This document shows positions 488 to 19,057 of a stretch of DNA of 64,000 nucleotides, piece by piece. Numbering within the stretch: the first letter of the stretch is position 1; every line of letters starts with the position of its first letter. The stretch is from Pelosinus fermentans DSM 17108 (GTDB lineage Bacteria; Bacillota; Negativicutes; DSM-13327): NCBI RefSeq assembly GCF_000271485.2, contig NZ_AKVN02000001.1, forward strand, positions 748,001 through 812,000, written 5' to 3'. Under the pieces are notes generated by a model. It made no database searches and was not told where the DNA came from. It was given only the letters and a program-made list of their open reading frames with translations. The position numbers and the translations under genes are program-made.

Positions 488-1354
488 TTATAAACGAGTT
501 TTAGCAATGGATTGACGAATCTTTTGCATATTGTGGGTAATCCGGTCGGGCTGCCTTAACATGGCTCCGACATAAAGCACGTCAATGATTGCCAAATGAA
601 TTAAACGTGAGGACATTGCCTCGGATCGATAATTAACTTCTTTCGCCATACCATTTAAAGTGATATGTGATATCTGGCTTAGGGGAGATCGGATGTGACT
701 TGTGATACCGATAATCGTTGCGCCATTTTCTTTTGCGATTTTTACAGACTCCAGAACGCTTTGATTAGAACCGGTGTGAGATATGGCCATTACGACATCG
801 CCAGGATGCAAGAGTGAGGCAGAAATTGCTTGCATATCCTGGTCGGCATAAGCTCTGACAGAAATGCCAAAACGTGAAAAGCGATGTTCCACATCGGCAG
901 CAATAGGTGCTGAACCTCCTGTGCCGTAGACTTCAATGCGGCGAGCGGCCAAGATTGCGGTGATTGCGTTTGATAAAGATTCTGCATGGATGATTTTTAA
1001 GGTGTCATGCAATGCCTCGTTGATGTTTTGAAAAACCTTGCTGGCGACTTCGTCAATAGGATCGTTTGCATTGACTTCGTTGTATATGGATTCAAAGGGT
1101 TCGTATAAGTCGCTTGCCAAGGCTATCTTAAGACTTTGAAAACCTGGAAATCCTAATTTGTTTTTGCAGAATCGTGAAATGGTAGCCTCGGCGCTCCCTG
1201 TAATTTCAGCCAGTTCGGTGATTGTCATATGAATGACTTCAGATGGATTGGAAATGATGTACTCTGCTAATTTTCGCTCTGTTTTAGTTAAGGATTGAAA
1301 CATATTATGGATGAGTGCTAAGCACACATTTGGTTTAGGCTCTCGTGTAGTCAT
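488..1354 (-). CDS. MurR/RpiR-family transcriptional regulator
   Basis: This 288-residue protein has the RpiR layout: an N-terminal helix-turn-helix (about residues 10-80, with SLTKTERKLAEYI and the recognition stretch ITELAEITGSAEATISRF) and a C-terminal SIS sugar-phosphate-binding domain (about 120-250, with EVYGTGGSAPIA and AISHTGSNQS). RpiR proteins sense phosphosugars and control sugar catabolism. The frame is open 40 codons further upstream, but ATG at 1354 was chosen because AAGGAG lies 7 bases before it and the family begins there. It diverges from the GntP-type permease across an AT-rich region with repeated TGAAAATAAT sites, so it probably controls the permease and following genes. 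Ligand unknown. Confidence 0.9.
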   Translation of the reverse strand: MTTREPKPNVCLALIHNMFQSLTKTERKLAEYIISNPSEVIHMTITELAEITGSAEATISRFCKNKLGFPGFQSLKIALASDLYEPFESIYNEVNANDPIDEVASKVFQNINEALHDTLKIIHAESLSNAITAILAARRIEVYGTGGSAPIAADVEHRFSRFGISVRAYADQDMQAISASLLHPGDVVMAISHTGSNQSVLESVKIAKENGATIIGITSHIRSPLSQISHITLNGMAKEVNYRSEAMSSRLIHLAIIDVLYVGAMLRQPDRITHNMQKIRQSIAKTRL

Positions 1355-2237
1355 ATTTTTCTCCTTGTGAACTCGTACTTTGTAGCTGAACATATTATAT
1401 TGAACAAGTTTTTTTCGAACCAGAAAACTCTCTTTGCAGCAAGGTTGCCTCGCGATTGTATAGATAAAAAACATACAGTAAATGTAAAGCCAACTGTTGA
1501 CAATGTAAGTATAACAAATGACGGGGAACTATAACAACAATTCTTTAATTGAAAATGAAAATAATATTAAAAAAGCATAGAAGATTGTGAAAAAAGTAAT
1601 GAGGCAGTGGAAATTGCGAAGAAATACAGAGAATACCAAGGATATTATAGTTATTCTCCATATTGTTGGAGCCAGAGTGGTTTATTTTCAAAGCCAATTG
1701 TTCTTGTGTTTTAAGAAATGAAAATAATTTCACAAAAGACAAATAAAATCAAAAAAAGATACATAAATATGAATAACAGCAGTTGAAAACAATAAATTGC
1801 TATTTTTTAAAAAAATGCTCTATGCTGAAAATATCAGGAAATAGCGCCTTGTTAATTAGATATGGTTAAGGGGTGCGATATGAGTAAATGCTGAAAAATT
1901 AAAATGAAAATAATTACGAATTGAATAAAAATATTGAAAATTACATTTAAAGTTATTGATTTTATTCTTTGCAAATTATATAATACATATGAAAATAATT
2001 TTGAAAAGATAATAATCAATGAAAATAATTTGCGAAAAATGATTTAAATAAACCTGATTATTGTTTTCGCAGATAGTCATAAGAATTGATCCTCGTTTTA
2101 AAAATGGAGTTAAACGAAATAGAAAGGCGGTGGGAAGGGGTTAAATAACAGAATTTTCTTTGTTTAGAAAACAAAGGATAAGGATTAGTCCCACGAAGGG
2201 AACAATGCTTAGTAGGATAAAAAGAGGAGGAATATTA
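1355..2237. promoter_or_regulatory. Divergent AT-rich control region with repeated TGAAAATAAT boxes
   Basis: This 880-base gap between regulator and permease holds no convincing gene. TGAAAATAAT occurs on the + strand at 1556, 1719, 1905, 1990 and 2020, and TTATTTTCA (its reverse) at 1682-1690. The 1719 copy is a full inverted repeat, TGAAA-ATAA-TTTCA; the 1990 copy (TGAAAATAATTTTGA) is nearly so. Spaced TGAAA/TTTCA half-sites are the kind of palindrome RpiR-type regulators bind. The site count and placement are seen; binding by the adjacent regulator is inferred. No clear -35/-10 pair was picked out for the permease. Confidence 0.65.
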
Positions 2238-3572
2238 ATGTTAATCGGAGTTGCTATTGCGGCTGTTCTTTTGCTCTTGGTTATGATTACTTATTTTAAA
2301 ATTAATCCTTTTGTAACCTTAATGATTGTGTCGGTATTCTTGGGAGTGGCAGCGGGGATGCCCTTTGATAAAGTCCTTGCCTCCATTCAAGCGGGTTTAG
2401 GCAATACCCTTGGTTTTATTGCAATTGTTTTAGGACTTGGCACCATGTTAGGAAAAATGTTAGAAGAATCTGGTGGAGCAGAGAGAATTGCCAAAACCTT
2501 AATTAATTTGTTTGGATTGAAAAAAGTTCACTGGGCAATGATGATTGTTGCCTTTATTGTTGGAATTCCTGTTTTCTTCCAAGTGGGTGTTGTACTTTTA
2601 ATTCCTCTCGTGTTTACGATTGCAAAGGAAACAGGAATTTCTTTGCTGAAAGTTGGTCTTCCGCTCGTTGCGGGGTTATCCATTGTGCATGGTTTGGTTC
2701 CCCCTCACCCTGCAGCAATGGCAGCTGTAGATATATTTAAGGCAGATGTAGGTAAAACGATTTTATATAGCCTTATTGTTGGTTTGCCTGCAGCAGCTCT
2801 TGCCGGGCCTTTATTTGCCAGTTTTATTTCAAAACGTATGCGAGTGGTTGGGGTACCTGAAGGTTTTGCTGACCAGATTAAAGCAGGACGGGAAGACCAT
2901 GAAATGCCGGGATTCGGCATTACCGTTTTCACGATATTACTGCCAGTTATATTAATGCTATTTGCCACAATTGCTGATTTAACAATGGATCGTACGTCTC
3001 AGATGTTTGCGATTTTGAAATTCATCGGCAGCCCGTTTATGGCACTCTTAATTGCATTATTGTTTGCTTTTTATAGCTTTGGTTTTAGTCGTAATTTTAA
3101 CTTGACGCAAATTGGTAAGTTCTGCGATCAATCGCTGCCAGCTATGGCCAGCATTTTAATGGTCATCGGCGGCGGCGGTGCGTTTAATAAGGTATTATTA
3201 GATAGTGGTATTGGTAATGAAATCGCTAAGATGGCTTCCACGATGGGGTTAAGCCCGATTATGTTAGCTTGGACGATTGCAGCTATGATTCGTGTCGCTA
3301 CAGGTTCTTCTACGGTTTCGATGATGACTGCAGCTGGTATCGTAGCACCTCTTGTTGCAAATACGGCAGGTGTTTCTAAAGAGATCATCGTGCTGGCTGT
3401 GGGATCAGGAGCACTGGTTCTTTCTCATGTGAATGATGCCGGATTTTGGATTGTAAAGGAATACTTCGGTATGACGGTTACTGAAACATTAAAAACGTGG
3501 ACCGTTCTGGAGACGATTCTTTCTGTATCTTCATTGGTATTTATATTGCTTCTATCTAAGGTAGTCTCATAG
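2238..3572 (+). CDS. GntP-family gluconate/sugar-acid permease
   Basis: A 444-residue polytopic membrane protein of usual GntP length. It matches the family in the MITYFKINPFVTLMIVSVF region near the N-terminus, the GLGTMLGKMLEESGGAERIA segment, LSIVHGLVPPHPAA in the middle, and LSHVNDAGFW near the C-terminus. GntP proteins import gluconate, ketogluconate, idonate and similar acids with protons. An upstream TTG would extend it by 26 residues, but ATG at 2238 has AGAGGAGG 7 bases upstream. It heads the operon-like run of dehydrogenase and kinase genes. The exact substrate cannot be read from the sequence. Confidence 0.92.
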   Translation: MLIGVAIAAVLLLLVMITYFKINPFVTLMIVSVFLGVAAGMPFDKVLASIQAGLGNTLGFIAIVLGLGTMLGKMLEESGGAERIAKTLINLFGLKKVHWAMMIVAFIVGIPVFFQVGVVLLIPLVFTIAKETGISLLKVGLPLVAGLSIVHGLVPPHPAAMAAVDIFKADVGKTILYSLIVGLPAAALAGPLFASFISKRMRVVGVPEGFADQIKAGREDHEMPGFGITVFTILLPVILMLFATIADLTMDRTSQMFAILKFIGSPFMALLIALLFAFYSFGFSRNFNLTQIGKFCDQSLPAMASILMVIGGGGAFNKVLLDSGIGNEIAKMASTMGLSPIMLAWTIAAMIRVATGSSTVSMMTAAGIVAPLVANTAGVSKEIIVLAVGSGALVLSHVNDAGFWIVKEYFGMTVTETLKTWTVLETILSVSSLVFILLLSKVVS

Positions 3573-3587
3573 AACATAAAGATGCAT

Positions 3588-3624
3588 GGACGTCCAGGTG
3601 TACATTAACTACAGCTGGACGTCC
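3588..3624 (+). repeat. Strong hairpin downstream of the permease
   Basis: GGACGTCCAGGTGTA and TACAGCTGGACGTCC can pair over 15 bp with one mismatch around a 7-base loop. No T tract follows, so it is not a classical terminator. It may stabilise the 3' end of the permease message, mark partial termination, or be an operator. GGACGTCC is itself palindromic and is present in both arms. Confidence 0.6.
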
Positions 3625-3753
3625 AACTATGGTGGAGAGATCGAATCATAAGTTTCAAATAGATTCAATTACTAAAAAAATGCTCATAAAGAGTAATTTC
3701 GGTTCGGCTTTGTCAACTGTTGATTATTCTTATAAGACAAAGGAGGAAGTAGT

Positions 3754-4848
3754 ATGAAAGCAGCGATATATCAAGGCATTGGAAAAATGACAGTTGAGGA
3801 GATTGAAACACCTCAGGTTCAGCCTGGAACGGTTTTGATTAAAGTAAAGGCTTGTGCAATTTGCGGCGGGGATTTAAGAACCTTTCGTCATGGTCATGCG
3901 GCGATTAAACCGCCGATTGTTTTAGGGCACGAAATTGCAGGAGAAATTGTAGAGGTAGCATCGGATGTTACTGCGTATTCAGTAGGTGAACGTGTCATCG
4001 TTGCACCGGGTATTGGGTGCGGAACGTGCTCCTACTGCTCATCCGGCTGGCAGAATATGTGTTACACCCGTAAGACCATAGCCCATCATTATAATGGTGG
4101 CTTTGCTGAATATGTGCTTGTTCCGGCAGGCGGCGTGCGGGTAGGTAATATCAATCGCATTCCCGATGAGGTTACCTATTTGGAGGCATCTCTTGCTGAA
4201 CCGCTAGCTTGCGTATTGAATGCACAAGAAGTAATGAATATTGGTTTGGGTGATTCAGTGGCGGTGATCGGTGCAGGGCCAATCGGCATTATGCATGCTG
4301 AGGCAGCCAGAGCAAGAGGAGCAGGCAAGATCTTTTTAATTAACCGGAGTCCCAGACGTTTGGAAGAAGCAAAGTCATTTGGCTTTGATGGATATATTGA
4401 CCTGAGTTCCCAGGATGGGGCGAAGGCTGTGATGGAGCTGACAGGTGGCTTGGGAGCGAATGTAGTGATCGTTACAGCGGGTACACCGGAAGCTCAAGTT
4501 TTAGGTATTAATATGGCTAGCAAAATGGGCAAAGTTTGTCTGTTTGCAGGATTGCCTAAAGATCAGCCTACGATTACAATCGATGCCAATTATGTACATT
4601 ATCGGCAAATTGCTATTTATGGTGCATTTTCATCAGCGCCTCGGCATAATGCATTAGCCTTGGAGCTGATTCGTAATGGTAAGGTATCAGCTAAGAAAAT
4701 TTTGACTCATTTAGTGACATTGGATGAGATCTGCCAAGGGATGGATCTGGTTACTAATCGGGCAGGGCTGCGTGTGTCGGTAGCTCCATTCCTGGATGAG
4801 CTAAAAGATGAAATCAGCGAACATTCGGAGATCATCGTTATAAAATAA
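3754..4848 (+). CDS. Zinc-dependent medium-chain alcohol/polyol dehydrogenase
   Basis: This 364-residue MDR enzyme has the catalytic zinc site (Cys37 in AICGGD, His59-Glu60 in LGHE, Glu149 in LAEPLACV) and the structural zinc loop (Cys89, Cys92, Cys95, Cys103). The Rossmann motif VIGAGPIGIMHAEAARARGA is at about 171-190. Relatives oxidise sorbitol, threonine, idonate or other polyols and sugar acids with NAD(P). ATG 3754 has AAGGAGG 8 bases upstream. With a GntP permease, kinases and 2-hydroxyacid dehydrogenases nearby, an L-idonate 5-dehydrogenase-like role is plausible but is inference. A polyol substrate is the main alternative. Confidence 0.88.
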   Translation: MKAAIYQGIGKMTVEEIETPQVQPGTVLIKVKACAICGGDLRTFRHGHAAIKPPIVLGHEIAGEIVEVASDVTAYSVGERVIVAPGIGCGTCSYCSSGWQNMCYTRKTIAHHYNGGFAEYVLVPAGGVRVGNINRIPDEVTYLEASLAEPLACVLNAQEVMNIGLGDSVAVIGAGPIGIMHAEAARARGAGKIFLINRSPRRLEEAKSFGFDGYIDLSSQDGAKAVMELTGGLGANVVIVTAGTPEAQVLGINMASKMGKVCLFAGLPKDQPTITIDANYVHYRQIAIYGAFSSAPRHNALALELIRNGKVSAKKILTHLVTLDEICQGMDLVTNRAGLRVSVAPFLDELKDEISEHSEIIVIK

Positions 4849-4960
4849 TCGTATATAGCGTGTTAAAGAAACTTGGATAGAGTCTTTTTTGTTCTTGCGG
4901 TTTCCATGTAACATTTACTTCGACCTATGTACAAATGAATAGAAGCAGGAGGGGAAGGAA

Positions 4961-6478
4961 TTGGCTTGTTTAATCGGCATAGACATAGGAACTACGAATT
5001 GTAAAGCTGCAGCCTATACAGAAGATGGTATGTTTAAAGCAGTAGCTAGTCGTCCAACTGTGACTCATTATTTAGAAAATAATTGGGCTGAATTTGATCC
5101 CGGACAAATTTGGGATGCGGTACAGGATATATTGCGAGATATTACCCGTCAATTGGGGGGAGAAAAGATTGACGGCATCGCAGTGGCTAGCATGGGGGCT
5201 GCTGGTGTTCTGCTTAATGAGAACGATGAATGGATCCATCGTTCAATTGCTTGGTTTGATACCCGGACGGAAGGAATTGCTGCCGAGTGGCGCGAGGACT
5301 TTGGCAGTGAAGAAGTATTCAGCATTAGTGGTTTTGTACCGAATCCCATGGCGGGTATTACAAAAGTGCAATGGATTCGAAAGCAAAAGCCTGAATTGTT
5401 TAAAGGTGTGAAGCGATGGGTTTCCATGCAGGATTACATCGTGTACCGGCTTACTGGCGAGGCGGTAGTCGATTTATCCGTAGCTTGCCGGACGATGGCA
5501 GTTGATCTAAAGGAGCGCTGCTGGTCCGATAAGATTCTGGATCATGCACAGATTCCGCGGGAAATATGTTCGACCATAAAACGATCGGGAGAATTGGCAG
5601 GAACTGTCACGAGCCATTCAGCTGGTTTAACCGGTGTTGAGGCGGGAACTCCTGTTTTTGCTGGTGGGATGGACTATGTTTGTGGTGCCTTTGCTTGTGG
5701 TTTGACGCAAAGCGGTCAAGTACTAAGTGCCATAGGGACGAGTGAGCAGATTCTTATGGTTGTTGATGAGCCAGCCAATGATGTAAAGCATATTGATACC
5801 AATTTTACTTGTGTAAATTATGTTGTAGATGACAAGTATTATATCGCAGGACAAGTGATTTCATCAGGTGTAATTTTAGATTGGTTTCGCACTGAAATGA
5901 CCAAGGAGGATTTGACTACCTTGCTTGATGAGGCAGAAAAGTCGCCATTGGGAGCAAAGGGAGCGATATTGTTGCCTCATTTTCGCGGGAAATATGCACC
6001 TGGAGCTGATCCCTTATCCAAGGGAGCACTCATCGGATTGACTACTTCTCATACAAGAGGCGATTTGGCAAGAGCGATCATAGAAGGACTCTGCTATGAA
6101 TCTACAACGATTATAGAAGGAATACAAAAGATAGTAGATTATGAGATTGAGACTGTGAATGTAGTAGGGGGAGCAACAAAGTCACCTTTTTGGATGCAGA
6201 TCAAAGCAGATATCTTAGGGAAGCCTGTCGTTTGTTTAAATGTGCCTGAGGCTGTTACACTTGGTGCAGCGATGTTGGCCGGACTTGGTGCCGGGATATA
6301 CAAAGATCCTGAAGATGCTGTACGACAGACAAGGCGTGATGATACGGTTTATCTTCCAGACCCAGTGAGGCATGAAGCATATCGTACCATGTTTGAAAAT
6401 GTATATCAGAATGTTTATCCTGCGCTTCAAGGGATACATCACAAAATCGATGCTCTAATTAAGAAGGAGGAGAAATAA
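4961..6478 (+). CDS. FGGY-family carbohydrate kinase
   Basis: A 505-residue kinase with the ATPase-fold phosphate motif IDIGTTNCKAAAY at residues 8-20, a central GGMDYVCGAFACG segment holding the likely catalytic Asp, an IGTSEQI phosphate-2 motif, and a C-terminal VVGGATKSPFWMQI adenosine motif. Length and motifs fit the fuculokinase/xylulokinase branch. It starts at TTG 4961 with AGGAGGGG about 8 bases upstream; no better start is present. Its stop (6476-6478) abuts the next ATG at 6479, implying one transcript and coupled translation. It probably phosphorylates the sugar or keto-acid made by the upstream dehydrogenase. Substrate unassigned. Confidence 0.9.
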   Translation: MACLIGIDIGTTNCKAAAYTEDGMFKAVASRPTVTHYLENNWAEFDPGQIWDAVQDILRDITRQLGGEKIDGIAVASMGAAGVLLNENDEWIHRSIAWFDTRTEGIAAEWREDFGSEEVFSISGFVPNPMAGITKVQWIRKQKPELFKGVKRWVSMQDYIVYRLTGEAVVDLSVACRTMAVDLKERCWSDKILDHAQIPREICSTIKRSGELAGTVTSHSAGLTGVEAGTPVFAGGMDYVCGAFACGLTQSGQVLSAIGTSEQILMVVDEPANDVKHIDTNFTCVNYVVDDKYYIAGQVISSGVILDWFRTEMTKEDLTTLLDEAEKSPLGAKGAILLPHFRGKYAPGADPLSKGALIGLTTSHTRGDLARAIIEGLCYESTTIIEGIQKIVDYEIETVNVVGGATKSPFWMQIKADILGKPVVCLNVPEAVTLGAAMLAGLGAGIYKDPEDAVRQTRRDDTVYLPDPVRHEAYRTMFENVYQNVYPALQGIHHKIDALIKKEEK

Positions 6479-7510
6479 ATGAAATTTTTAGTGGTAGGAG
6501 ATCCAATGCTGACAGCAGATACGCTGGCAAAAGCAGTACGTGATGTCTTCGGCGATGAAGCGATTGTAAAAGGGGTAGATTGGAAACCAGAAAGTGAGGA
6601 AGAATTTTGGTTCTTACGCAGTCAAGTTGAAAAATTTGGTCCTAGTGCCGGAAAACCTCCAGCGGAATTGATTGAAGCAGGCAAAGATGCCGATGTGATT
6701 ATTACTCATCATACCCCGTTGAATAAAGAGCTGATTGAGCAAAGCAGTGCATCTTATGTTGGAGTATGTCGTGCTGGCACCGAAAATGCAGATGTTAATG
6801 CTGCAACAGCAAAAGGCACTAAAGTAATGAAAACCATGGGGCGGAATGCAGAGGCTGTATCCGATTTTACAATTGCACTGCTGCTGGCGGAGCTGCGTAA
6901 TTTGGCAAGAGGTCATGCTGCATTGATGCAGGGAGACTGGAAAAAGAAATATGCTAATTCTGGATTTATGGGTGATGTGCGTGAAAAAACGATCGGTTTA
7001 GTAGGCTTGGGCTATATTGGGCGTCTGGTTGCCCACAAATTGGCAAACTTTAATGTTCGCGTTCTGGCATATGATCCATATATCAAGGCGGAAGCGGTGC
7101 AAGGATCGGGAGTGGAATTAGTTTCCCTGGAAGAACTATGCAGGCAATCTGATTTCATTAGTATTCATGCCAGACTTAGTAAAGATACGGCAGGTCTGAT
7201 TGGCAAAGAAGCGCTTTCATGGATGAAGCCAACGGCGTATTTGATTAATACTGCACGAGCAGGTTTGATTGATGAGGAGGCATTAGTAGAAACCTTGAAA
7301 AATAAGCAAATTGGCGGAGCGGCTCTGGATGTTTTTTGGACAGAACCAATCGCAAAAGAACATCCTCTGTTAACCATGGACAATGTTACTCTGACTCCTC
7401 ATTTGGCTGGTGCGACAAATGACACATTTGCTCAAACACCCTATTTATTATTGCGTGAATTGAAACGTGTTTTAGATAACAAAGAAACTTCCAGTTGGAT
7501 TGTTAATTAA
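6479..7510 (+). CDS. D-isomer-specific 2-hydroxyacid dehydrogenase (PGDH-like)
   Basis: A 343-residue NAD(P)-dependent enzyme. The nucleotide-binding segment GLVGLGYIGRLVAHKLA is followed by an acidic DPY. The catalytic triad is present: Arg in INTARAGLIDEEAL, Glu in VFWTEP and His in LTPHLAG. The family interconverts 2-hydroxy- and 2-keto-acids (glycerate, 2-ketogluconate, phosphoglycerate). It starts directly after the kinase stop, with AAGGAGGAG just upstream. An ACT domain of biosynthetic SerA is absent, so a catabolic role such as 2-ketoaldonate reduction or oxidation of a phosphorylated acid is more likely. Substrate not determined. Confidence 0.88.
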   Translation: MKFLVVGDPMLTADTLAKAVRDVFGDEAIVKGVDWKPESEEEFWFLRSQVEKFGPSAGKPPAELIEAGKDADVIITHHTPLNKELIEQSSASYVGVCRAGTENADVNAATAKGTKVMKTMGRNAEAVSDFTIALLLAELRNLARGHAALMQGDWKKKYANSGFMGDVREKTIGLVGLGYIGRLVAHKLANFNVRVLAYDPYIKAEAVQGSGVELVSLEELCRQSDFISIHARLSKDTAGLIGKEALSWMKPTAYLINTARAGLIDEEALVETLKNKQIGGAALDVFWTEPIAKEHPLLTMDNVTLTPHLAGATNDTFAQTPYLLLRELKRVLDNKETSSWIVN

Positions 7511-7529
7511 TTTGTAGAGAGGTAGCTTT

Positions 7530-8342
7530 ATGATGTATCCTCCTGTTCGACTGATTGCTCTTGATTTGGATGGAACGTTATTAGATGAAGAGAAAAAGAT
7601 TCCCGATCAGGCTGTACAAATGATTGCCAAGGCCAAGGAGAAAGGAATCATTGTTACGCTGGTATCGGCAAGACCTTTTTGTTCTATACTGCCTTATGCC
7701 CGCCAATTACAGTTAGATGCACCGCTGATTTCTTTGAGTGGTTCCTATGTGACAGATGAAAGAGAAGAAAGAATATGGCTGAAAAAACCAATGAATTTGC
7801 TGAAGTTTAGAGAAATGATTCGCATTTTTGAAGAAGATAATTACTATGTCAAAGTGTATTTAGAGAATCAGCTTATTGTTCAGGAAGCCATCAAAGAAAC
7901 GGTCAACTATTCTCGAATCTTTGGGGTGCCTTATACTGCCCTGGGACCAAAGAAATTAAGAACATTGGATAAGGCGCCTTTGCGCATTGCATTATTTGAT
8001 GATTCTGTACGGATTCAAAATGCGCAGCAAATTTTAAAAAGGTGGTCAGATGATTTTGCTGTCATTCGGGATACCGATCATGGTTTAGAAATTGTAGAAC
8101 CGACTGTCAGCAAAGGAGCCGCTTTAAAAACAATTTGTTGGGATTTGGGAATTCCTATGGAAAATGTGATGGCAGTTGGAAATGAAGGCAGCGATATTTC
8201 TATGATTCGAGAAGCGGGTATTGGAATCGCTATGGGCAATGCCTGCGAGGAACTAAAGCAGTGTGCTGATGATGTAACAAAAACAAATGAAGAATGTGGT
8301 GTTGGGTATGCAATACAAAAATTTGTTTTTAAAGATAAGTGA
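7530..8342 (+). CDS. HAD-superfamily Cof-type phosphatase with altered motif IV
   Basis: This 270-residue protein has the Cof-type IIB HAD pattern: motif I ALDLDGTLLD near residues 10-19, a Ser motif VSARPF, the conserved Lys in EPTVSKGAAL, and motif IV near residue 215. Such enzymes dephosphorylate sugar phosphates or FMN. Motif IV reads VGNEGSDISM where the family usually has GDxxND, so the first magnesium-binding Asp is Asn. It lies between the two kinase/dehydrogenase pairs with a 19-base gap upstream and overlaps the next gene's upstream region, so it belongs to the operon. It may remove stalled sugar phosphates. Activity should not be assumed. Confidence 0.85.
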   Translation: MMYPPVRLIALDLDGTLLDEEKKIPDQAVQMIAKAKEKGIIVTLVSARPFCSILPYARQLQLDAPLISLSGSYVTDEREERIWLKKPMNLLKFREMIRIFEEDNYYVKVYLENQLIVQEAIKETVNYSRIFGVPYTALGPKKLRTLDKAPLRIALFDDSVRIQNAQQILKRWSDDFAVIRDTDHGLEIVEPTVSKGAALKTICWDLGIPMENVMAVGNEGSDISMIREAGIGIAMGNACEELKQCADDVTKTNEECGVGYAIQKFVFKDK

Positions 8343-8353
8343 GGATGATGAAG

Positions 8354-9886
8354 ATGAAACCTTCTGTATGGATTGGTATTGATATAGGGACGACAGGAAT
8401 AAGAGCCGTGGCGTATCAAGCTGACGGGCAGTCTCTTTGTGCTGCTTCTCAGGACTATCCGCTGTATACGCCTCATCCTGGCTGGGCTGAACAAGATCCT
8501 AACGAAATTATTGGTGCAATGGAAAGTGTCATCAGCGATGTAGTGACCTCATTAACCCAGACTGGACGCAAGGCGGAAGGGGTTTCCATCAGTTCCGTAT
8601 TTCACAGTTTTCTCGCCTATGATAAAGAGGGAGAGCCGACTACAACGCTAATGACTTGGGCAGACAACCGCAGTCAGGAAATTGTGCGAGAGATGAAAAG
8701 GATATATCCCGATTTCCTGTCCATATACCGCCGCACAGGATGTCCGCTTCATCCCATGTACCCTATGGCTAAGATTGCTTGGCTTCGCAAGGAACGTCCT
8801 GAGATATTCAATAGTTCATCGTATTTTGGTTCGATCAAAGATTATGCCTTTCGAATATTGACTGGGCAATGGGTGGTAGATCGTTCTATTGCCAGCGGTT
8901 CCGGTTTGTATAATCTATTCAATTTGGAATGGGATCGGGAGTTGTTAACATATCTCTCTATTTCGGAAGAGTCGCTGCCGAGTGTTGTGTCAACAACATA
9001 CAGTCAGCCCTTAAGAGGTGAGATGGCTCGCCGGACAGGTCTGCAGCCGGGAATTCCTGTAGTGATTGGCGCTGGTGACGGCGTATTGGTAAATGTAGGC
9101 ATCGGTGCGGTAAGACCTGGGGATATGAGTGCCACGATTGGCACAAGCGGTGCAGTGCGTATGCTGACAGATAAACCGTGTACAGATGAAAAAGGACGGA
9201 CTTGGTGTTACAATCTTACGGATACCGTATGGGTTGCAGGCGGAGCCATTAATAATGGTGGAATTGCACTGCGCTGGATGCGGGATCATTTTGGTGAGAC
9301 AGAACAAAGAGTGGCAGAAAAACTTGGCATCGATTCCTATGACTTGATGTCTAGCTATGCAAAAAAAATAGCGCCCGGCTCAGAGGGGCTCATTATGCTT
9401 CCTTTCTTTACCGGTGAGCGAGCTCCAAACTGGAATGCGGACGCCAGAGGTGTACTGTTCGGTCTTACCCTGCAGCATGATAAACGGCATATGATTCGCG
9501 CCACTATGGAAGGGGTATGTTATCGAATGAACAGTATCCTGCTTGCCCTGCAGGAAGTGACGGGACCAGCTCGTGAAATTAGAGTAAGCGGCAGTTTTAT
9601 CAGGTCAGAATTATGGCTGCAAATTTTAGCTGACACATTGAATCAGGAAATAAATGTTCCAAATGTAAACGAAGGGGCAGCTTTTGGTGCCGCGGTATTA
9701 GGCTTCGTTTCTGCGGGAATTATAAAGGATATATCTTCCACCGCGGATTTTGTAACAATTGAAAAGACTTATAAGCCGGGAGCTTCGGCAGTTAAAAGCT
9801 ATCAAGAACTATATGATATTTATAACCGTATATACTGGAATCTGCAGCAGGAATTCACGGATATTGCTGCTTTCGGTAAGAAATGA
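8354..9886 (+). CDS. Gluconokinase-like FGGY-family kinase
   Basis: A 510-residue kinase beginning MKPSVWIGIDIGTTGIRAVA. Gluconokinase-type (Bacillus GntK-like) marks are MTWADNRSQ, CPLHPMYPMAKIAWL, the GAGDGVLVNVGIGA segment with the likely catalytic Asp, IGTSGAVRM, and VSGSFIRSELWLQILAD near the C-terminus. It would phosphorylate gluconate or a related aldonate at the terminal carbon. ATG 8354 was preferred over GTG 8339 and ATG 8345/8348 because TGAGG then sits at usable spacing and homologues start at this point. The first gene of this type in the cluster (4961) is only a distant paralogue, so the locus may process two substrates or two steps. Confidence 0.88.
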   Translation: MKPSVWIGIDIGTTGIRAVAYQADGQSLCAASQDYPLYTPHPGWAEQDPNEIIGAMESVISDVVTSLTQTGRKAEGVSISSVFHSFLAYDKEGEPTTTLMTWADNRSQEIVREMKRIYPDFLSIYRRTGCPLHPMYPMAKIAWLRKERPEIFNSSSYFGSIKDYAFRILTGQWVVDRSIASGSGLYNLFNLEWDRELLTYLSISEESLPSVVSTTYSQPLRGEMARRTGLQPGIPVVIGAGDGVLVNVGIGAVRPGDMSATIGTSGAVRMLTDKPCTDEKGRTWCYNLTDTVWVAGGAINNGGIALRWMRDHFGETEQRVAEKLGIDSYDLMSSYAKKIAPGSEGLIMLPFFTGERAPNWNADARGVLFGLTLQHDKRHMIRATMEGVCYRMNSILLALQEVTGPAREIRVSGSFIRSELWLQILADTLNQEINVPNVNEGAAFGAAVLGFVSAGIIKDISSTADFVTIEKTYKPGASAVKSYQELYDIYNRIYWNLQQEFTDIAAFGKK

Positions 9887-9926
9887 TACAGCTATTACAG
9901 CCAATAATCGCTAGGGGGCATAGAGT

Positions 9927-10889
9927 ATGGCAAAGGTATTAATTACGGCCCGTTCAGTTGCTGCTAATAAAGAAGGCAAGGCAATACTGGAAAATGCAGG
10001 GCATGAAATTATCACTCATGTTAGTGATGGTGTTAAGTCAGAGGCTGAGATGATACGCATTATTCCCGGTATGGATGCGGTTATTGCCGGTCTGGATGAA
10101 ATTACTGACAAGGTCATTGAAGCAGGAGCACCTGGATTAAAAATAATAGCCAGAAATGGTGTGGGTTATAACAAAGTAGATGTAGAAGCTGCTGCAAGGC
10201 TAGGTATCCCCGTAACCCTCGCACCAGGAACCAATACCATATCGGTTTGCGAATTAGTATTCGGCTTGATGTTGTCTCTGGCAAGAGTAATACCGGGTCA
10301 GGATGCCCAGGTTCGTCAAGGCAGTTGGAAACGTAACTTAGGTTGTGAATTATATGGAAAAGTATTAGGAGTGCTGGGCACAGGAAATATCGGCAGTGAA
10401 GTGATAAAAAGAGCACATGCTTTTGGTATGGAGATTATAGCCTTTGATGTTTGGCAAAAACCTGAGTTATGCCAGAACTATAATGTGAGATATCTTTCGT
10501 TAGATGAAGTAGTGGTAAAGGCTGATTTTTTAACATTGCATTTACCTGTTACCCCTGATACAAAGTGCCTTATGAATGAACGTACTTTGACAGATATGAA
10601 GAAGAATGCTTTCATCATAAATACAGCAAGAGGTGAACTGGTGGACGAGAAAGACCTTTATACTGCATTGAAAACAGGAACGATAGCGGGCTATGGCGCG
10701 GACACTTTGACACAAGAACCGCCGGCGCCAGATCATCCGCTGCTTACACTGCCAAATGTAGTGCTAACACCTCATTGTGGAGCATACACGGAAGATGCAG
10801 TTACACGGTGCAGCGTTACGGCCGCCCAAGAGGTTGTACGTGTTCTAAGTCATCAGGAACCTAAATATGCTGTTGCAGTAAAGGCATAG
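9927..10889 (+). CDS. D-2-hydroxyacid / phosphoglycerate dehydrogenase-like protein
   Basis: This 320-residue enzyme has the PGDH fold: GVLGTGNIGSEVIKRA (NAD site), INTARGELVDEKDL (catalytic Arg), a Glu in TLTQEPPAPDHP and His in LTPHCGAYT. It lacks the regulatory domain of long SerA. It is a second, divergent 2-hydroxyacid dehydrogenase in the locus, following the gluconokinase-like gene by 40 bases, so the pair mirrors the kinase/dehydrogenase pair at 4961-7510. A hairpin terminator follows, ending the locus. Likely substrates are 2-keto-aldonates or their phosphates; serine biosynthesis is an alternative, since no other serA lies in the window. Confidence 0.87.
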   Translation: MAKVLITARSVAANKEGKAILENAGHEIITHVSDGVKSEAEMIRIIPGMDAVIAGLDEITDKVIEAGAPGLKIIARNGVGYNKVDVEAAARLGIPVTLAPGTNTISVCELVFGLMLSLARVIPGQDAQVRQGSWKRNLGCELYGKVLGVLGTGNIGSEVIKRAHAFGMEIIAFDVWQKPELCQNYNVRYLSLDEVVVKADFLTLHLPVTPDTKCLMNERTLTDMKKNAFIINTARGELVDEKDLYTALKTGTIAGYGADTLTQEPPAPDHPLLTLPNVVLTPHCGAYTEDAVTRCSVTAAQEVVRVLSHQEPKYAVAVKA

Positions 10890-10967
10890 AATAAAGGATT
10901 ATCATATAAGAGTTACTTGTAACTTGTTAGGAAAAAACGACTAAAGGTTGGATCGTATACTTGGCTC

Positions 10968-11008
10968 AATGAGCGCTTCTGATACTATATCTGAAGCGCT
11001 CATTAAAT
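10968..11008 (+). terminator. Hairpin terminator after the sugar-acid locus
   Basis: AATGAGCGCTTC and GAAGCGCTCATT pair over 12 bp; AAATAACTTTT follows. The T tract is weak, but the position after the last gene of the locus supports termination. Confidence 0.72.
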
Positions 11009-11054
11009 AACTTTTGGAATATTTGTTGTGAAATGATGCCTGGAGGAATTGTAA

Positions 11055-11600
11055 ATGATAGGGCTAGAACAACTAATCAAAGCAAACAGCAGTTTTCTTT
11101 TAAAATCAGCAGCTAATGGGGATGGTCTTTCTAAGAACCCAAAACATCATATCGCTATCGTTACTTGTATGGATACCAGACTGGTTGAACTCTTAGAGTC
11201 GGCACTTGGAATAAAAAGAGGAGAGGCCGTTGTAATTAAAACCGCCGGAACATCGACAGATGGAAATTTTGGTACTATTTTGCGAAGCTTAGTTATCGCT
11301 ATTTACGCCCTGGACGTGGAAGAAATTGTTGTGGTTGGTCACGAGGATTGCGGTGTGACGCAAATATCCCCAAGTATGCTGAAACAAAAGATGCAAAAGC
11401 GAGGGATTGATAAGAGGCACATCCGTAAATTCGAGGAAGAAGCAATTGCTTGGCTGGACAAGGTTCACAATAGTGAGGAAGAGGTTAAGAAGCTGGTGGA
11501 TGCACTGCGTAAAACGACTATTATTCCAAGGAATGTTCCTATTCACGGATTAATGATTCATCCTGATACTGGTAAAGTGTCACCTTTGTCAGATGGCTAG
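11055..11600 (+). CDS. Beta-class carbonic anhydrase
   Basis: A 181-residue cytoplasmic protein with the zinc ligands of beta-carbonic anhydrases: Cys38, Asp40 and Arg42 in VTCMDTR, and His96 and Cys99 in VVGHEDCG. The KTAGTS and NFGTILRSL segments also fit. It interconverts CO2 and bicarbonate. ATG 11055 has TGGAGGA about 8 bases upstream. It stands alone between a terminator and the chemoreceptor fusion, 86 bases before the latter. At 181 residues it is on the short side for the class and resembles the small bacterial clade with a short C-terminus. No sign that it belongs to the sugar operon. Confidence 0.9.
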   Translation: MIGLEQLIKANSSFLLKSAANGDGLSKNPKHHIAIVTCMDTRLVELLESALGIKRGEAVVIKTAGTSTDGNFGTILRSLVIAIYALDVEEIVVVGHEDCGVTQISPSMLKQKMQKRGIDKRHIRKFEEEAIAWLDKVHNSEEEVKKLVDALRKTTIIPRNVPIHGLMIHPDTGKVSPLSDG

Positions 11601-11686
11601 TATTGTTGTCTTTTAAAATTTGTTATGAATGATGTTATGCAATCAGTTGTATTGTTTAATGAACAAATCGGAGGAGGCGTTAGGTT

Positions 11687-13864
11687 ATGAAAGAAAAATA
11701 TATGAAATTATTTTTTGTATTACCGCCCATATTAGTACTTGTTTTACTAATGTATATCATTTTATCCGGATTTGATGTGTATAGCATATTCTTAACCATT
11801 GGTGTTTTACTGTCTTGTTCCTTCAACTCAATACTATTGCATCGAATCATGCGGCCGTTGAAAACAGTTTCAGAACAAGCTTCCCGTATGAAGGATGGAG
11901 ATTTGACAGTTTCGCTGGAATGTGGGGGTAATAACGAACTAGGAGAGATAACAACATCAATTAACTCTGCATTGGAATATCTGCGTACACTCTTGAGTTT
12001 AGTTACTGATGAAGCGGCAGAAGTGTCAAGTAAGAGCGTGGAAATTGCATCTGTCTCGGATGGAGCTAGTCGAGATATAAGGCTGATATCAATGGCGGTA
12101 GCTGAACTTGCTTCAGGTGCTCAGGAAACGGGTACTATGGCGCAAAATGCTGCCAGCAAAACAGATCAAGTTTCTGAATTAGCAAAAAATACGGCAGCAG
12201 GGTTGCAATCTTTATTGCAAATTACACAGCAAATTATGGCGTCAGTCCATCAGGGGAGCGAAGCAATCGGGCGGTCTAAAAATATTGTCAATGAAATTGC
12301 AGCAACTGCTCAGTATAATGTGCGTTTGGGTGGGGAACTTAAGGGGAAATCCCAAGAAGTAAGGGAAATTATCAAGCTTATCAATAGTATTACGGCACAA
12401 ACGAATTTACTGGCATTGAATGCAGCGATTGAGGCAGCAAGAGCTGGAGAGCATGGCAGAGGATTTGCAGTTGTCGCAGAGGAGGTTCGTGAGCTTGCCA
12501 ATCGATCTCACCATGCCGCTGGTCAAATTAATGAAATTGTCGAAAGTATGCTTTCCGATATTGGACATGTAGTGGTAGCCTTTGAAACAACGCAGGAAAG
12601 TATGAACACAGGTGTAAATACAATTACGGCGGCCAATGTTAGCTTTGCAGATATAAGATCCGATATTGAAAAATCCCGTATTAAATTACAAGAGGTAACA
12701 TTGCTTGCCGATAATCAAGCAGATGCTGCTGCTGATTTGATGTCAACTGTGCACGGTGTGGCTGCGATTGCTGAGCAATCTGCTGCAGCAACGCAAACAG
12801 CGGCTGCTAGCAGCGAGCAAATCACCACGTCGGTTGCCCAAATCGCTAGTGGTACTCAACAGTTATCCCGTTTGGCCGGAAATTTGGAACAAGCAGTTTT
12901 TCGATTTCATTTTTCGAATACGAAAACCTTACGCGTTGGGTTTGAAATGACAGATAAGTCTGTATGCTATGCGGGTATGGAGAGATTTGGACAAATCTTG
13001 CATGAACGCACTCAGGGGCGTTATAGTCTAAAAATCTTTCATAGTGCTCAATTAGGGACAGGCCTTGATATGATTGAAAAGCTAAAAGAAGGAACTCTGG
13101 AGATGACATTTCCGGCTTTGCCGACGCTGGCAGGCTTAGATAAACGATTTATGGTTTTTGATTTCCCATTTTTGATTAGAAATGAGAGCATAGCAGATTA
13201 CATACTTCACGGACCTTTTGCCAGAAAACTGCTGGATATGCTTGATCAATACGGATTTTACGGTCTGACATTTGCTGAAAGCGGATTTCGCAATACGACC
13301 AACTCGCGGCACGCTATTATGGGCTTAGAGGACTTTCGCGGACTGAAGATTAGAACCATGCAGAATGATCTTCATATCGATACTTGGAAGGCTTTGGGGG
13401 CAGATCCCATACCGCTGCCTTTTGCGAATTTATACAATGCTATGCGGTTAAAAGAGGTAGATGGTCAGGAAAACCCTATTGCTACGATCTATGACGATAA
13501 ATTTTATGAAGTACAGAAGTTCTTAACGCTCACCAATCATGTGTATTCACCTTTTATACTGATGTACTCGAAGAAGCTATGGGACATTGTGCCGGCTGAA
13601 GATAAACCTATTATCGAGCAGGCTGCGAAGGAAGGTGCCTTATATACCACTGAGGTGAATCGGAAAAGGAAAAAGGATAATTTGCAGGCATTAGAAAGAA
13701 AAGGTATGTTCGTAGGGCAAATTAGTTCGATGGAGATGGTTAAAATTCAAGAAATGGTTAAGCCGGTAATTGATCGATATAAAAATCAAATTGGCAAAGA
13801 GCTGGTAAACGAGCTTTTTGCAGAGATAAAAAAAGCAGAAGAAAAAACAGTATACAAAAGTTAA
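11687..13864 (+). CDS. Methyl-accepting chemotaxis protein fused to a C-terminal TRAP (DctP) solute-binding domain
   Basis: A 725-residue fusion. Residues 7-27 and about 33-51 are hydrophobic segments separated by only a few residues, so there is almost no extracytoplasmic sensor. A HAMP domain (about 52-103) and a full MCP signalling domain (about 110-400) follow; the hairpin tip (about 228-272) holds [20 protein letters not shown]. Residues about 412-715 match a whole TRAP solute-binding protein: [31 protein letters not shown] with the ligand-binding Arg556, and [11 protein letters not shown]. No signal peptide or membrane segment separates the MCP and DctP parts, so the binding domain is predicted to be cytoplasmic, whereas DctP proteins normally act outside the membrane. 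ATG 11687 has GGAGG upstream. No TRAP permease genes are adjacent. Confidence 0.9.
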
Positions 13865-13957
13865 AAATGGTCTAATATTTCGAATTTTTATTTGCTGCTT
13901 ATATTTAAAATGATTATGAGTTATTATTCACGCTATTTTTATAATAATGATACAGTA

Positions 13958-14005
13958 GAAAACCCTTGCTGTCCTTTTAAAACACAAAGGAACAGTAAGG
14001 GTTTT
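13958..14005 (+). terminator. Rho-independent terminator after the chemoreceptor fusion
   Basis: AAAACCCTTGCTGTCCTTT pairs with AAAGGAACAGTAAGGGTTTT (few mismatches), ending in a T tract. Confidence 0.88.
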
Positions 14006-14159
14006 CTGCTATGCTGGTATATATTTGGGAGGGATTAGCTGGTCATTAACCCGGTTGACTGAATGGGCTTCTGCCTGGCAAGCAATGGGATGCTTTCTCT
14101 ATACGAAAAGGTGTAATATATTTTTCTTTTAAATATTATGGTAAAACAGTAAAATAATC

Positions 14160-14189
14160 TTGCTTTTTCTCTATGATGACTGGTATAAT
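14160..14189 (+). promoter_or_regulatory. Likely sigma-A promoter of the ilv-leu operon
   Basis: TTGCTT (14160-14165) and TATAAT (14184-14189) are 18 bases apart. A second possible pair, TTGGCA (14307) and TATAAT (14332), has a 19-base spacer and would start just before the riboswitch. The first has the better spacing. Neither is proven. Confidence 0.55.
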
Positions 14190-14195
14190 GGCTTA

Positions 14196-14684
14196 AAATG
14201 TTACACATGGGTAGTTGCGCAGAATAAGTTTGTATTTCTGCGGAGGATATTTTTCTTATTTGTTCATGCTGCAGGTTCATATTTACTGAAGGAGGACTTG
14301 TATGCATTGGCATGAGAATGTTTAAACTAAGTATAATCTGATGTGTAATCGCCAATAGAAAAGGTGACCAGTAAAAAGTTGAGTATACAGCCGATTGGTC
14401 TTGGCAATAGAGTAACGTTGTCGTTTGAAGTGTAAAAAAAGTTACAACGTCGTAACGAGAAAGAGTATCTAGGGTTCCGCTGTAAAAAGGACTGGACCAA
14501 GCGATACAAATGCGCGTATGCGGATTACACCGTGAGTATAAAAGACTCTGCGGAAATTTTCTCACTGCTGAAGCCTGTGGTATACATGATTGTTTCAGCA
14601 AAGAATAGACAAATCTATTCTTATAGTGGGAACCTTTCGGTGGCTTTTTTGTTTTTATTAAGCAATAAAATGGAGGTGGATGGA
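14196..14684 (+). other. Long untranslated leader of the ilv-leu operon
   Basis: Roughly 490 bases lie between the predicted promoter and ilvN. They contain several hairpins (CGCAGAA/TTCTGCG at 14219-14242; GCCAA/TTGGC and GACCA/TGGTC at 14351-14405; ACGTTGT/ACAACGT at 14414-14450), the riboswitch core (14457-14563), a perfect AGAATAGA/TCTATTCT hairpin (14602-14621) and a T-rich tract (14645-14656). The T tract suggests an attenuator, but I could not resolve one clean terminator stem. No leader peptide rich in branched-chain residues is seen. Confidence 0.6.
14457..14563 (+). promoter_or_regulatory. ykkC-class riboswitch, probably ppGpp subtype
   Basis: The conserved ykkC blocks are present in order: TCTAGGGTTCCG (14468-14479), GGACTGGACCAAGCG (14489-14503), ACACCG (14527-14532) and the P3 hairpin GAGTATAAAAGACTC (14534-14548), which matches the class pattern GGGATAAAAGCCC. 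GAGAAA (14457-14462) can pair with TTTCTC (14558-14563) as P1. ykkC RNAs split into guanidine, ppGpp, PRPP and other subtypes; the ppGpp subtype is known upstream of branched-chain amino acid genes. The class is read from sequence; the ppGpp assignment is inferred from the ilv-leu genes that follow. Confidence 0.8.
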
Positions 14685-15230
14685 ATGGGTCATCATACAA
14701 TCTCAATTTTAGTACTGAATCAATCAGGGGTATTGGTACGAGTGGCTGGAATGTTTTCACGCCGGGGGTTTAATATTGAAAGTTTGGCCGTAGGCACTAC
14801 GCATGTTCCAGAATACTCACGTATTACAGCAGTCATGCAAGGAAGTGACGCGATTGTAGCCCAGGTGGTGAAGCAATTAGAAAAATTGGTAGAAGTAAGG
14901 GCCGTTGAGATCCTGCCTGTTAATACTGCAGTGGTAAGGGATATGGCGATGATAAAAGTTAAAGCAGAGCAAAATAAGAAGTTAGAAGTTTTGCAGCTGG
15001 CAGAAACTTTTGGAGCTAAGGTCGTGGATATTTCAAATGAGACTTTGATGGTGGAAATAACCAGTGGGAAAACCAATACGGATGCATTAATTGCTGCGTT
15101 ATCCTCCTATGGAATCTTAGAGATGATTCGAACAGGAGTTGTTGGTTTGCAGCGAGGTGACTGTAGTATCTATGAAAAAGAAAAATGTGAAATTAGTGAT
15201 TTATTCGATGCAGCTCAAGTTAAGGCATAG
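14685..15230 (+). CDS. ilvN: Acetolactate synthase small (regulatory) subunit
   Basis: This 181-residue protein starts MGHHTISILVLNQSGVLVRV and has the N-terminal ACT domain (about 4-75) with GMFSRRGFNIESLAVG and a C-terminal ALS_ss domain ending SGKTNTDALIAALSSYGI. It binds valine and adjusts the catalytic IlvB subunit in branched-chain amino acid synthesis. The open frame extends 51 codons upstream into the riboswitch leader, but ATG 14685 with GGAGGTGGA before it is the real start. ilvN heads the operon, whereas its partner ilvB is the last gene, about 4 kb downstream. Expression is probably set by the leader riboswitch. Confidence 0.94.
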   Translation: MGHHTISILVLNQSGVLVRVAGMFSRRGFNIESLAVGTTHVPEYSRITAVMQGSDAIVAQVVKQLEKLVEVRAVEILPVNTAVVRDMAMIKVKAEQNKKLEVLQLAETFGAKVVDISNETLMVEITSGKTNTDALIAALSSYGILEMIRTGVVGLQRGDCSIYEKEKCEISDLFDAAQVKA

Positions 15231-15277
15231 GGCAAAACCACCTCTCATATTCTAAAGAGGCTATCTCTAGAAAGTAA

Positions 15278-16324
<1,047 letters not shown>

Positions 16325-16342
16325 TAGGACAGAGGTGTTGGT

Positions 16343-17887
16343 ATGGAACGAAGAATTAAGATTTTTGATACCACACTACGTGACGGTGAGCAGACGCCTG
16401 GCGTATGTTTGGATATGCATGAGAAACTGGAAATTGCCCGAAGTCTGGTAAAATTAAATGTGGATATTATTGAAGCGGGTTTTCCCATTGCTTCTCCAGG
16501 GGATTTTAAAGGTGTCAGTCAAATTGCAGAATGTATAAAAGGTCCTGTAATTGCAGGCTTGTCCAGAGCCAATAAAAAAGATATTGATGCCGTGGTGGAA
16601 GCTTTGAAGAAAGCTGAGCGCCCTCGGGTTCATACATTTATAGCCACTAGTGATATTCACATGGAATATAAATTGAAAATGTCCCGTGACCAGGTATTGG
16701 CGGTGACAGAAGAATCAGTACGGTATGCGAAACAATTTATCGAGGATATTGAATTTTCCGCAGAAGATGCTTCTCGGTCTGACTGGGGTTTTCTCTGCCA
16801 GGTATATGCCAAAGCCATCGCAGCAGGTGCGACGGTTATTAATGTACCTGATACAGTAGGGTATACGACACCTGATGAATACGGCGCCTTAATTCGCCAT
16901 TTACGGGAACATGTGCCTGGTATTGATAAGGTCGATATTAGTGTTCACTGTCACAATGATTTAGGGCTGGCTGTGGCGAATTCTCTGGCTGCTGTGCAAG
17001 CTGGTGCTACCCAAGTGGAGTGCACGATCAATGGATTGGGTGAACGGGCTGGAAATGCTGCATTAGAAGAGTTGATTATGGCCTTTTATACTCGCCGGGA
17101 TTACTATAATGTAACTACTAACATTGATACAAAACAAATTTATCGTGCCTCTACCCAAGTGAGTGCATTGACAGGTGTGGATGTGCAGATTAATAAAGCG
17201 ATAGTGGGTGATAATGCTTTTGCTCATGAGTCTGGCATACATCAGCACGGTGTTATGAATAACTCGCTGACCTACGAAATTATCTCTCCGGAAGTGATCG
17301 GGATGAGTCGTAATTCCATTGTGCTGGGAAAACATTCAGGCAGACATGCCTTTGAAGATCGTTTAAAGCAGCTGGATTATAATTTAGATAGTGAGACTGT
17401 TAATATACTGTTTGCCAAATTTAAAGATTTGGCGGATCGCAAAAAAGTGGTGTTTGATCAGGATATAGTAGCCTTGATTATTGACAAACCTTCTGTCCAT
17501 CCTGCCTGGTATCGTTTAGTTTCCTATCAAGTGGTGAGCGGCGGCAGTGCAAATGCTGCAACAGCTTCTGTACGATTAGAGACAAGTAATGGTATCACGG
17601 AAGAAGCAAGCTGCGGTGATGGTCCGGTAGATGCAGTATTTAAGGCGATTGAACAGGCGGTAGGTTTCGCTGTTGGCTTAAAGGATTATCAATTAAAAGC
17701 CATTACTGCCGGCGAAGATGCTCTGGGAGAATCAACTGTATGGATCGAGTACAATGGTGCAGTATATAATGGACGAGGCTTAAGCACAGATGTGATTGAA
17801 GCAAGTGCCAGAGCGTATGTTAATGCGATTAATAAACGATTGACAGCATGTGGTTATCCCGAGGTTCGAAAAGCCGCCGCGGAGTGA
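16343..17887 (+). CDS. leuA: 2-isopropylmalate synthase
   Basis: A 514-residue enzyme that joins acetyl-CoA and 2-ketoisovalerate in the first leucine-specific step. The N-terminal TIM barrel has [15 protein letters not shown] with the catalytic Arg and metal Asp, the metal-binding [15 protein letters not shown] pair of His, and [14 protein letters not shown]. The C-terminal regulatory (LeuA dimer) domain, where leucine binds, spans roughly 380-505. It starts at ATG 16343, 18 bases after ilvC. Full length; feedback inhibition by leucine is expected for this form. Confidence 0.95.
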
Positions 17888-17956
17888 TGCTGGCGAAGTA
17901 AATAGCAGCTGCAGGATGATCTATGCTGCAGTTGATTTAGTAGGTCAAGGAGAAAA

Positions 17957-19033: not shown

Positions 19034-19057
19034 CGTCTTCATTAGGAGGTAACTTGT

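Follow-up and report, generated by a model that had tools for sequence, protein, structure and literature searches.

A gene of Pelosinus fermentans DSM 17108 was found to encode a chemoreceptor in which a complete TRAP solute-binding protein of the DctP type is fused to the C terminus of an MCP. It lies in a stretch of 64,000 nucleotides that is called the window below. On balance, the protein is probably a chemoreceptor that is anchored in the membrane and responds to an intracellular organic acid, the likeliest being an imported sugar acid or hydroxy acid. That the ligand is likely to be an organic acid within the cell follows from the conservation of the fusion, from the lack of a membrane segment or signal peptide ahead of the DctP part, from the retention of the predicted carboxylate-binding residues, and from the finding of no TRAP gene among the neighbors scanned and no convincing DctM permease in the genome.

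The receptor ORF starts with an ATG preceded by a GGAGG-rich stretch, and its parts are listed together with the upstream genes in Table 1. The matches to HAMP, MCPsignal (PF00015, residues 216-360, 127 bits) and DctP (PF03480, residues 421-699, 275 bits, profile positions 5-284 of 286) all exceed the curated Pfam cut-offs, and the NCBIfam model TIGR00787 (dctP) matches with 230 bits against a cut-off of 175. The signalling domain carries the conserved hairpin tip of an MCP, and the DctP domain comes after it in the chain, so that the ligand-binding domain is C-terminal. Hydropathy in a 19-residue window peaks at 2.93 for the first membrane segment (residues 8-26) and at 1.95 for the second (33-51); no third segment is found, the value staying at or below 1.13 past residue 100. 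Around the junction of the MCP and DctP parts it does not rise above 0.07, and the MCP helix directly precedes DctP with no hydrophobic segment that could serve as an export signal. The initial annotation had described two membrane segments with a tiny loop, a HAMP and a full MCP domain, and then a complete DctP domain including the ligand Arg of a KIRT motif (R556), with neither signal peptide nor membrane segment ahead of the DctP part; hydropathy and the Pfam matches bear this out.

Table 1. Receptor gene, its parts and its upstream neighbors in the window (positions count from the first nucleotide of the window)
Feature	Positions	Strand	Basis
RpiR-type regulator (HTH_6 + SIS)	488..1474	-	
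GntP-type gluconate:H+ symporter	2160..3572	+	PF02447, 568 bits; TIGR00791, 539 bits (cut-off 293)
Zinc alcohol dehydrogenase family	3754..4848	+	
FGGY carbohydrate kinase	4961..6478	+	
D-2-hydroxyacid dehydrogenase family	6479..7510	+	
HAD (Cof-type) phosphatase	7530..8342	+	
FGGY kinase, best match gluconokinase (527 bits, under the cut-off of 649)	8339..9886	+	
D-2-hydroxyacid dehydrogenase family	9927..10889	+	
Beta-carbonic-anhydrase-like gene (Pro_CA)	11055..11600	+	Pfam, 60 bits; no NCBIfam match
MCP-DctP fused chemoreceptor gene	11687..13864	+	intact ORF, 725 aa; fusion also in relatives
TM hairpin, residues 8-26 and 33-51, short loop	11708..11839	+	hydropathy
HAMP domain, residues 50-100	11834..11986	+	Pfam PF00672, 51 bits
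MCP signalling hairpin, residues 101-409, tip motif 241-254	11987..12913	+	Pfam PF00015
Junction SNTK, residues 410-413	12914..12925	+	alignment of 12 fused proteins; predicted structure
DctP (TRAP solute-binding) domain, residues 414-725	12926..13861	+	Pfam, NCBIfam, structure match

As a reference for the position of the graft, the genome's 32 further MCP loci were used, in which the tip motif was recognized in 30 ORFs. The MCP chain ends exactly 155 residues after the tip motif in 24 of these 30. Counting 155 residues past the tip of the receptor leads to F409 (..EQAVFRFHF), the usual MCP C terminus, and the DctP part begins at about residue 414 (TLRVGF), right after the SNTK junction. In the alignment, the junction is equally short in 12 of 12 fused proteins, and in the AlphaFold model the helix 389-410 passes into a strand at 413-419. 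The residue count, the short junction and the model thus indicate that DctP has been attached to an otherwise ordinary MCP at its usual C terminus. Because the MCP hairpin folds back on itself, the C-terminal end of the MCP and the DctP domain should lie near the HAMP and membrane side, as known MCP architecture implies. Elsewhere in the genome, a short MCP-like ORF of 257 aa (L113:977-1750, near G000:C1:2227-2493) ends 66 residues past the tip and is possibly truncated.

The initial annotation had called for a search for the same fusion in other genomes, and such fusions were found in a scan of 10 genomes of the family and 380 of the class. Among the matches listed to an E-value of 2.5e-37, there are at least 12 complete fused ORFs in at least seven genomes of the class: one in the window genome, four in G004, one each in G005, G001, G079 and G296, and three in G305. 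They span three families, and within the genus the fusion occurs in four of eight genomes. The carriers include the Pelosinus fermentans MAG UBA6563 and P. propionicus DSM 13327 (class Negativicutes). When seven further fused proteins were scanned with Pfam, MCPsignal and DctP were called in all seven and HAMP in five, one of the five below the cut-off. In the phylum (398 genomes, E-values up to 1e-60), matches occurred in 31 genomes and none listed was longer than 406 aa except that of the window, so that the list holds no further fusion; the matches inspected outside the family in a pattern-based scan were free DctPs. Two long DctP frames were rejected as MCP fusions: a 559-aa frame in G310:C4 (L086), in which no MCP part was seen by eye, and one in G014:C10 (L087), which by eye reads DctM and then DctP. 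The latter (L087:5841-8174) is an observation in its own right, an ORF of some 778 aa that by eye joins a DctM permease to a C-terminal DctP.

The fear raised at the outset that an MCP gene and a DctP gene had merely been joined by a frameshift or a misassembly proved unfounded. All that was found in its favor is a copy in the MAG G009, which lies split across two contigs by contig ends. Against it stands the identical frame in the 12 complete ORFs of seven genomes, that of P. propionicus DSM 13327 among them, and the DctP domains of these 12 proteins form one clade (ultrafast bootstrap 100, SH-aLRT 98), so that an artefact has a negligible probability. The tree comprised 56 rows, namely the 12 fused proteins and 44 of 55 free DctPs; the 11 free rows left out were fragments, distant rows and the DctM-DctP row. 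The nearest row outside the fused clade is a free DctP with a lipobox that is 55% identical, and the free relatives bear signal peptides or lipoboxes as judged by eye. From these sequences, the simplest history would be one fusion event that started from an exported TRAP binding protein.

That ancestry leads to the question of the side of the membrane on which the DctP domain resides. As no later membrane segment was found, it should be cytoplasmic. The signal peptides or lipoboxes seen by eye on the free relatives would suit a DctP half placed outside the membrane, for example by an unusual insertion, and acting as an ordinary periplasmic sensor. This arrangement is very improbable, for neither a membrane segment nor a signal sequence separates the MCP part from the DctP part, the junction being as hydrophilic as described above, and basic residues flank the hairpin on its inner side, N-terminal to the first segment and C-terminal to the second. 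Moreover, the MCP tip must be cytoplasmic in order to reach CheA.

The ligand pocket was assessed using the numbering of 4P47, in which, in the excerpted text of PMC11668362, the ligand carboxylate is held by Arg152, Arg173 and Asn213. The counterparts in the window protein are R535, R556 and N596, of which R556 is the predicted ligand Arg of the KIRT motif, and all 12 fused proteins retain these three residues. An aromatic residue, F579, is kept in 11 of 12. The acidic residue that usually contacts the ligand hydroxyl is an Asp in 9 of 12 fused proteins and a Gly (G459) in the window orthologue group; Gly at this position occurs in 3 of 12 fused proteins and in 2 of 55 free DctPs. With a nearly full-length profile match, the fold, and the Arg, Arg and Asn predicted to bind a carboxylate, the domain has the sequence characteristics of a TRAP solute-binding protein. 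Its AlphaFold model has block pLDDT values of 74-95 save at the very end, and aligned by VIA-align to 4p47 with a Z of 39.5 (315 residues, rmsd 2.1) and to 7bbr with a Z of 34.0 (306 residues, rmsd 3.7). The same two entries are practically tied as the top sequence matches in the PDB (7bbr 4.1e-74, 4p47 5.6e-74), and 7bbr, by its title the sugar acid binding protein DctPAm, is 39-40% identical to the window DctP. The MCP half of the model is of low confidence, its alignment having 13 rows of which only three include the MCP part; we therefore draw no conclusion from it on the geometry of coupling.

Purifying selection acts on the gene. For the DctP part, dN/dS is 0.13 in the comparison with the G004 orthologue and 0.07 in that with P. 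propionicus, and for the MCP part 0.02 and 0.09, respectively; the comparison with L075 was not used, because its DctP part gave a saturated value. These values bear on the proposal that the DctP half binds no ligand and is either a degenerate passenger or a purely structural cap. One altered pocket residue in the window group could be cited for it, and ligand binding is itself predicted from the sequence. Nevertheless, with the triad in all 12 proteins, the low dN/dS against two orthologues and the 12 ORFs distributed over three families, a DctP half devoid of a ligand appears quite improbable.

A transport role for the domain would call for a TRAP permease. In agreement with the initial annotation, no TRAP gene lies next to the receptor gene, none being found among the neighbors scanned at 488-11600 and 14604-20728. 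In the window genome as a whole, no other DctP was found at E-values up to 1e-3, and no convincing DctM, the best match to the profile reaching 42 bits; judged on this profile, there is no convincing DctQM partner. Weak DctM matches are expected from other permeases, since a GntP permease scores 24 bits against DctM. DctM matches of at least 230 bits occur in 7 of the 10 family genomes. No DctM match above 42 bits was found in G004 (83% complete, four fused copies) and none above 46.5 bits in G009, and the fused gene occurs together with a strong DctM in G005 and G001.

The gene neighborhoods were inspected with regard to the nature of the ligand. In the window, the GntP gene lies about 8 kb upstream of the receptor gene, and the short Pro_CA-like gene ends 86 nt before it. 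The Pro_CA-like gene adjoins the receptor gene in all three orthologous loci seen whole (window, L079 and L080). In G079, a dehydrogenase, a class II aldolase, an FGGY kinase, GntP, the fused gene and RpiR follow each other in one direction. The likelier start of this fused gene (an ATG behind AAGGAG) lies 96 nt past GntP and the first possible start (a TTG) 42 nt past it, and between the two genes stands a hairpin that resembles a terminator and has a T run; owing to the 96-nt gap and the hairpin, a single transcript of GntP and the fused gene is doubtful. The fused loci of G004:C42 and G001 have similar kinds of genes, and these two and G079 form one subclade (89/81). By locus number, GntP and FGGY genes accompany L076, L078 and L081, which belong to a single subclade. 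The neighbors of L082 include an MFS permease and a gene of the altronate/galactarate-dehydratase type, and those of L077 include DHDPS-type, IlvD/Edd-type and MFS genes. At 4 of 10 loci, sugar-acid-type genes are absent (L075, which is cut by a contig end, L083, L084 and L085), and the sister free DctP (L033) lends the aldonate reading no support because its neighbors, BKACE and 3HCDH genes, are not sugar-acid genes.

Context was also counted for seven gene types (GntP, FGGY, 2-hydroxyacid dehydrogenase, altronate dehydratase, IlvD/Edd, class II aldolase and DHDPS); the regions reached at most about 9 kb to either side, those of L075 and L077 being cut by contig ends. At least one type was present in 8 of 12 fused regions and in 5 of 27 control regions, which cover the other 33 MCP places, and two or more types together were present in 8 of 12 and 2 of 27, respectively. 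If the window orthologues are counted once, the fused fraction with at least one type becomes 6 of 10, and treating L076, L078 and L081 as a single case as well gives 4 of 8. Because the queries were taken from the fused regions, the count favors the fused side, and the enrichment around the fused genes is suggestive only. An Rfam scan of the whole window at gathering thresholds gave no match and hence no leader RNA, and a promoter and terminator scan of 10850-15300 yielded nothing beyond shuffled sequences (6 against a mean of 12.1, and 3 against 2.8).

Sugar or hydroxy acids are favored over C4-dicarboxylates by some of the gene neighborhoods and by one of the two closest solved structures. 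The earlier proposal of a receptor for a cytoplasmic organic acid therefore stands as likely in its general form, and its range has been narrowed to sugar and hydroxy acids. The observations are not uniform. Downstream of the window gene are found genes for the acetolactate synthase small subunit, ketol-acid reductoisomerase and LeuA, as well as isopropylmalate-dehydrogenase-type and TPP-enzyme genes, and because of this series a branched-chain-pathway acid is a real rival ligand. The receptor could accordingly face inward and report the internal metabolic state by binding a biosynthetic or central keto or hydroxy acid, either one of the branched-chain pathway or one of the citrate type. The dehydratase of L077 scores above the IlvD cut-off, L083 lies beside homocitrate-synthase, aconitase and isocitrate/isopropylmalate-dehydrogenase types, and the Gly in place of the hydroxyl-contacting acidic residue in the window group agrees with such a ligand; together with the four loci that have no sugar-acid context, these points count against a sugar acid. 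On the other hand, a gap of at least 667 nt lies between the receptor gene and the acetolactate-synthase ORF, and GntP and FGGY genes are found at L076, L078 and L081 as well as upstream of the window gene. A metabolic-state sensor of this kind is consequently rather unlikely, albeit the strongest competitor of the imported sugar or hydroxy acid.

For an imported sugar or hydroxy acid as the ligand, the following mechanism can be envisaged. The TM hairpin would serve only as an anchor, as it leaves no space for an outside sensor, and the MCP hairpin tip, which is of the usual form, would contact CheA and CheW. The DctP Venus flytrap, presumably derived from an ancestral secreted TRAP binding protein, would now reside in the cytoplasm near the HAMP and membrane end. 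Binding of the carboxylate by R535, R556 and N596 would close the flytrap, which would shift the C-terminal helix of the MCP bundle and change the kinase output. The likeliest ligand would be a sugar acid or a related hydroxy acid, gluconate-like and prior to its phosphorylation, imported by GntP or MFS permeases and consumed by FGGY kinases or dehydratases. The receptor would thereby report the uptake and the metabolic backlog of an imported nutrient. The ligand class, the coupling of flytrap to bundle and the taxis output are what we infer from the domain order, the pocket and the gene context. With a solute-binding protein that is conserved, under selection and predicted to sit on the cytoplasmic side of a chemoreceptor, in a genome that has no convincing TRAP permease, it becomes simple to test whether bacteria navigate by directly reading out imported nutrients.

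A second MCP of the genome with a C-terminal solute-binding domain, of the PhnD type and 652 aa long, is encoded at L112:1312-3267 (about G000:C1:1129811-1131766), with the PhnD-type domain PF12974 at residues 400-641 (214 bits). Like the window receptor, it has a TM hairpin, the usual MCP end and then a complete solute-binding protein with almost no linker. It differs in the family of the binding protein, in having no HAMP call and in being commoner in the class sample. A PhnD-domain scan of 380 class genomes gave 51 rows, 44 of them with open frames of at least 596 aa. Each of the best-scoring 12 of the 51 loci has the MCP tip and an identical position of the graft, the chain continuing for 411-413 residues past the tip. 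As the PhnD loci share this graft position, two different families of solute-binding protein have been placed at the same spot. Negativicutes may thus have repeatedly inverted exported binding proteins by putting at least two families, TRAP DctP and phosphonate-type PhnD, on the usual C terminus of a hairpin-anchored MCP, forming a class of receptors that read intracellular solutes; this is a serious possibility, which we advance tentatively. If it is true, imported solutes rather than outside ones steer swimming, via flytrap domains of transport grade.

A literature search returned no paper on a DctP-MCP fusion, which does not prove that none exists. According to the excerpted text of PMC7390727, chemoreceptors with a C-terminal ligand-binding domain form a poorly characterized subfamily with at least 17 types of such domain in Pfam. 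The CZB-type and other receptors described there resemble the window receptor in that the sensor follows the MCP signalling domain, and since receptors with C-terminal ligand-binding domains are thus in print, the layout is less unprecedented than had earlier been implied. Unlike the CZB example, as far as that excerpt describes it, the window receptor carries a whole TRAP solute-binding protein and a TM hairpin. For this poorly characterized subfamily, the DctP part provides a domain that can be separated from the rest, is modelled with confidence and has a predicted class of ligand. Solute-binding proteins are described as extracytosolic in the excerpt of PMC9602780. The window DctP shares with TRAP solute-binding proteins (4p47, 7bbr DctPAm and SiaP) the fold and the Arg/Arg/Asn triad, whereas it differs from them in having no signal peptide, in its fusion to an MCP, in its predicted cytoplasmic location and in belonging to a genome without a convincing DctM. 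Finally, the cytosolic chemoreceptor MtpA of Methylobacterium is said in the excerpt of PMC10613068 to sense an internal product of nutrient metabolism. This description mentions no TRAP-type binding domain; MtpA resembles the window receptor as read here in that sensing takes place inside the cell and is linked to metabolism.
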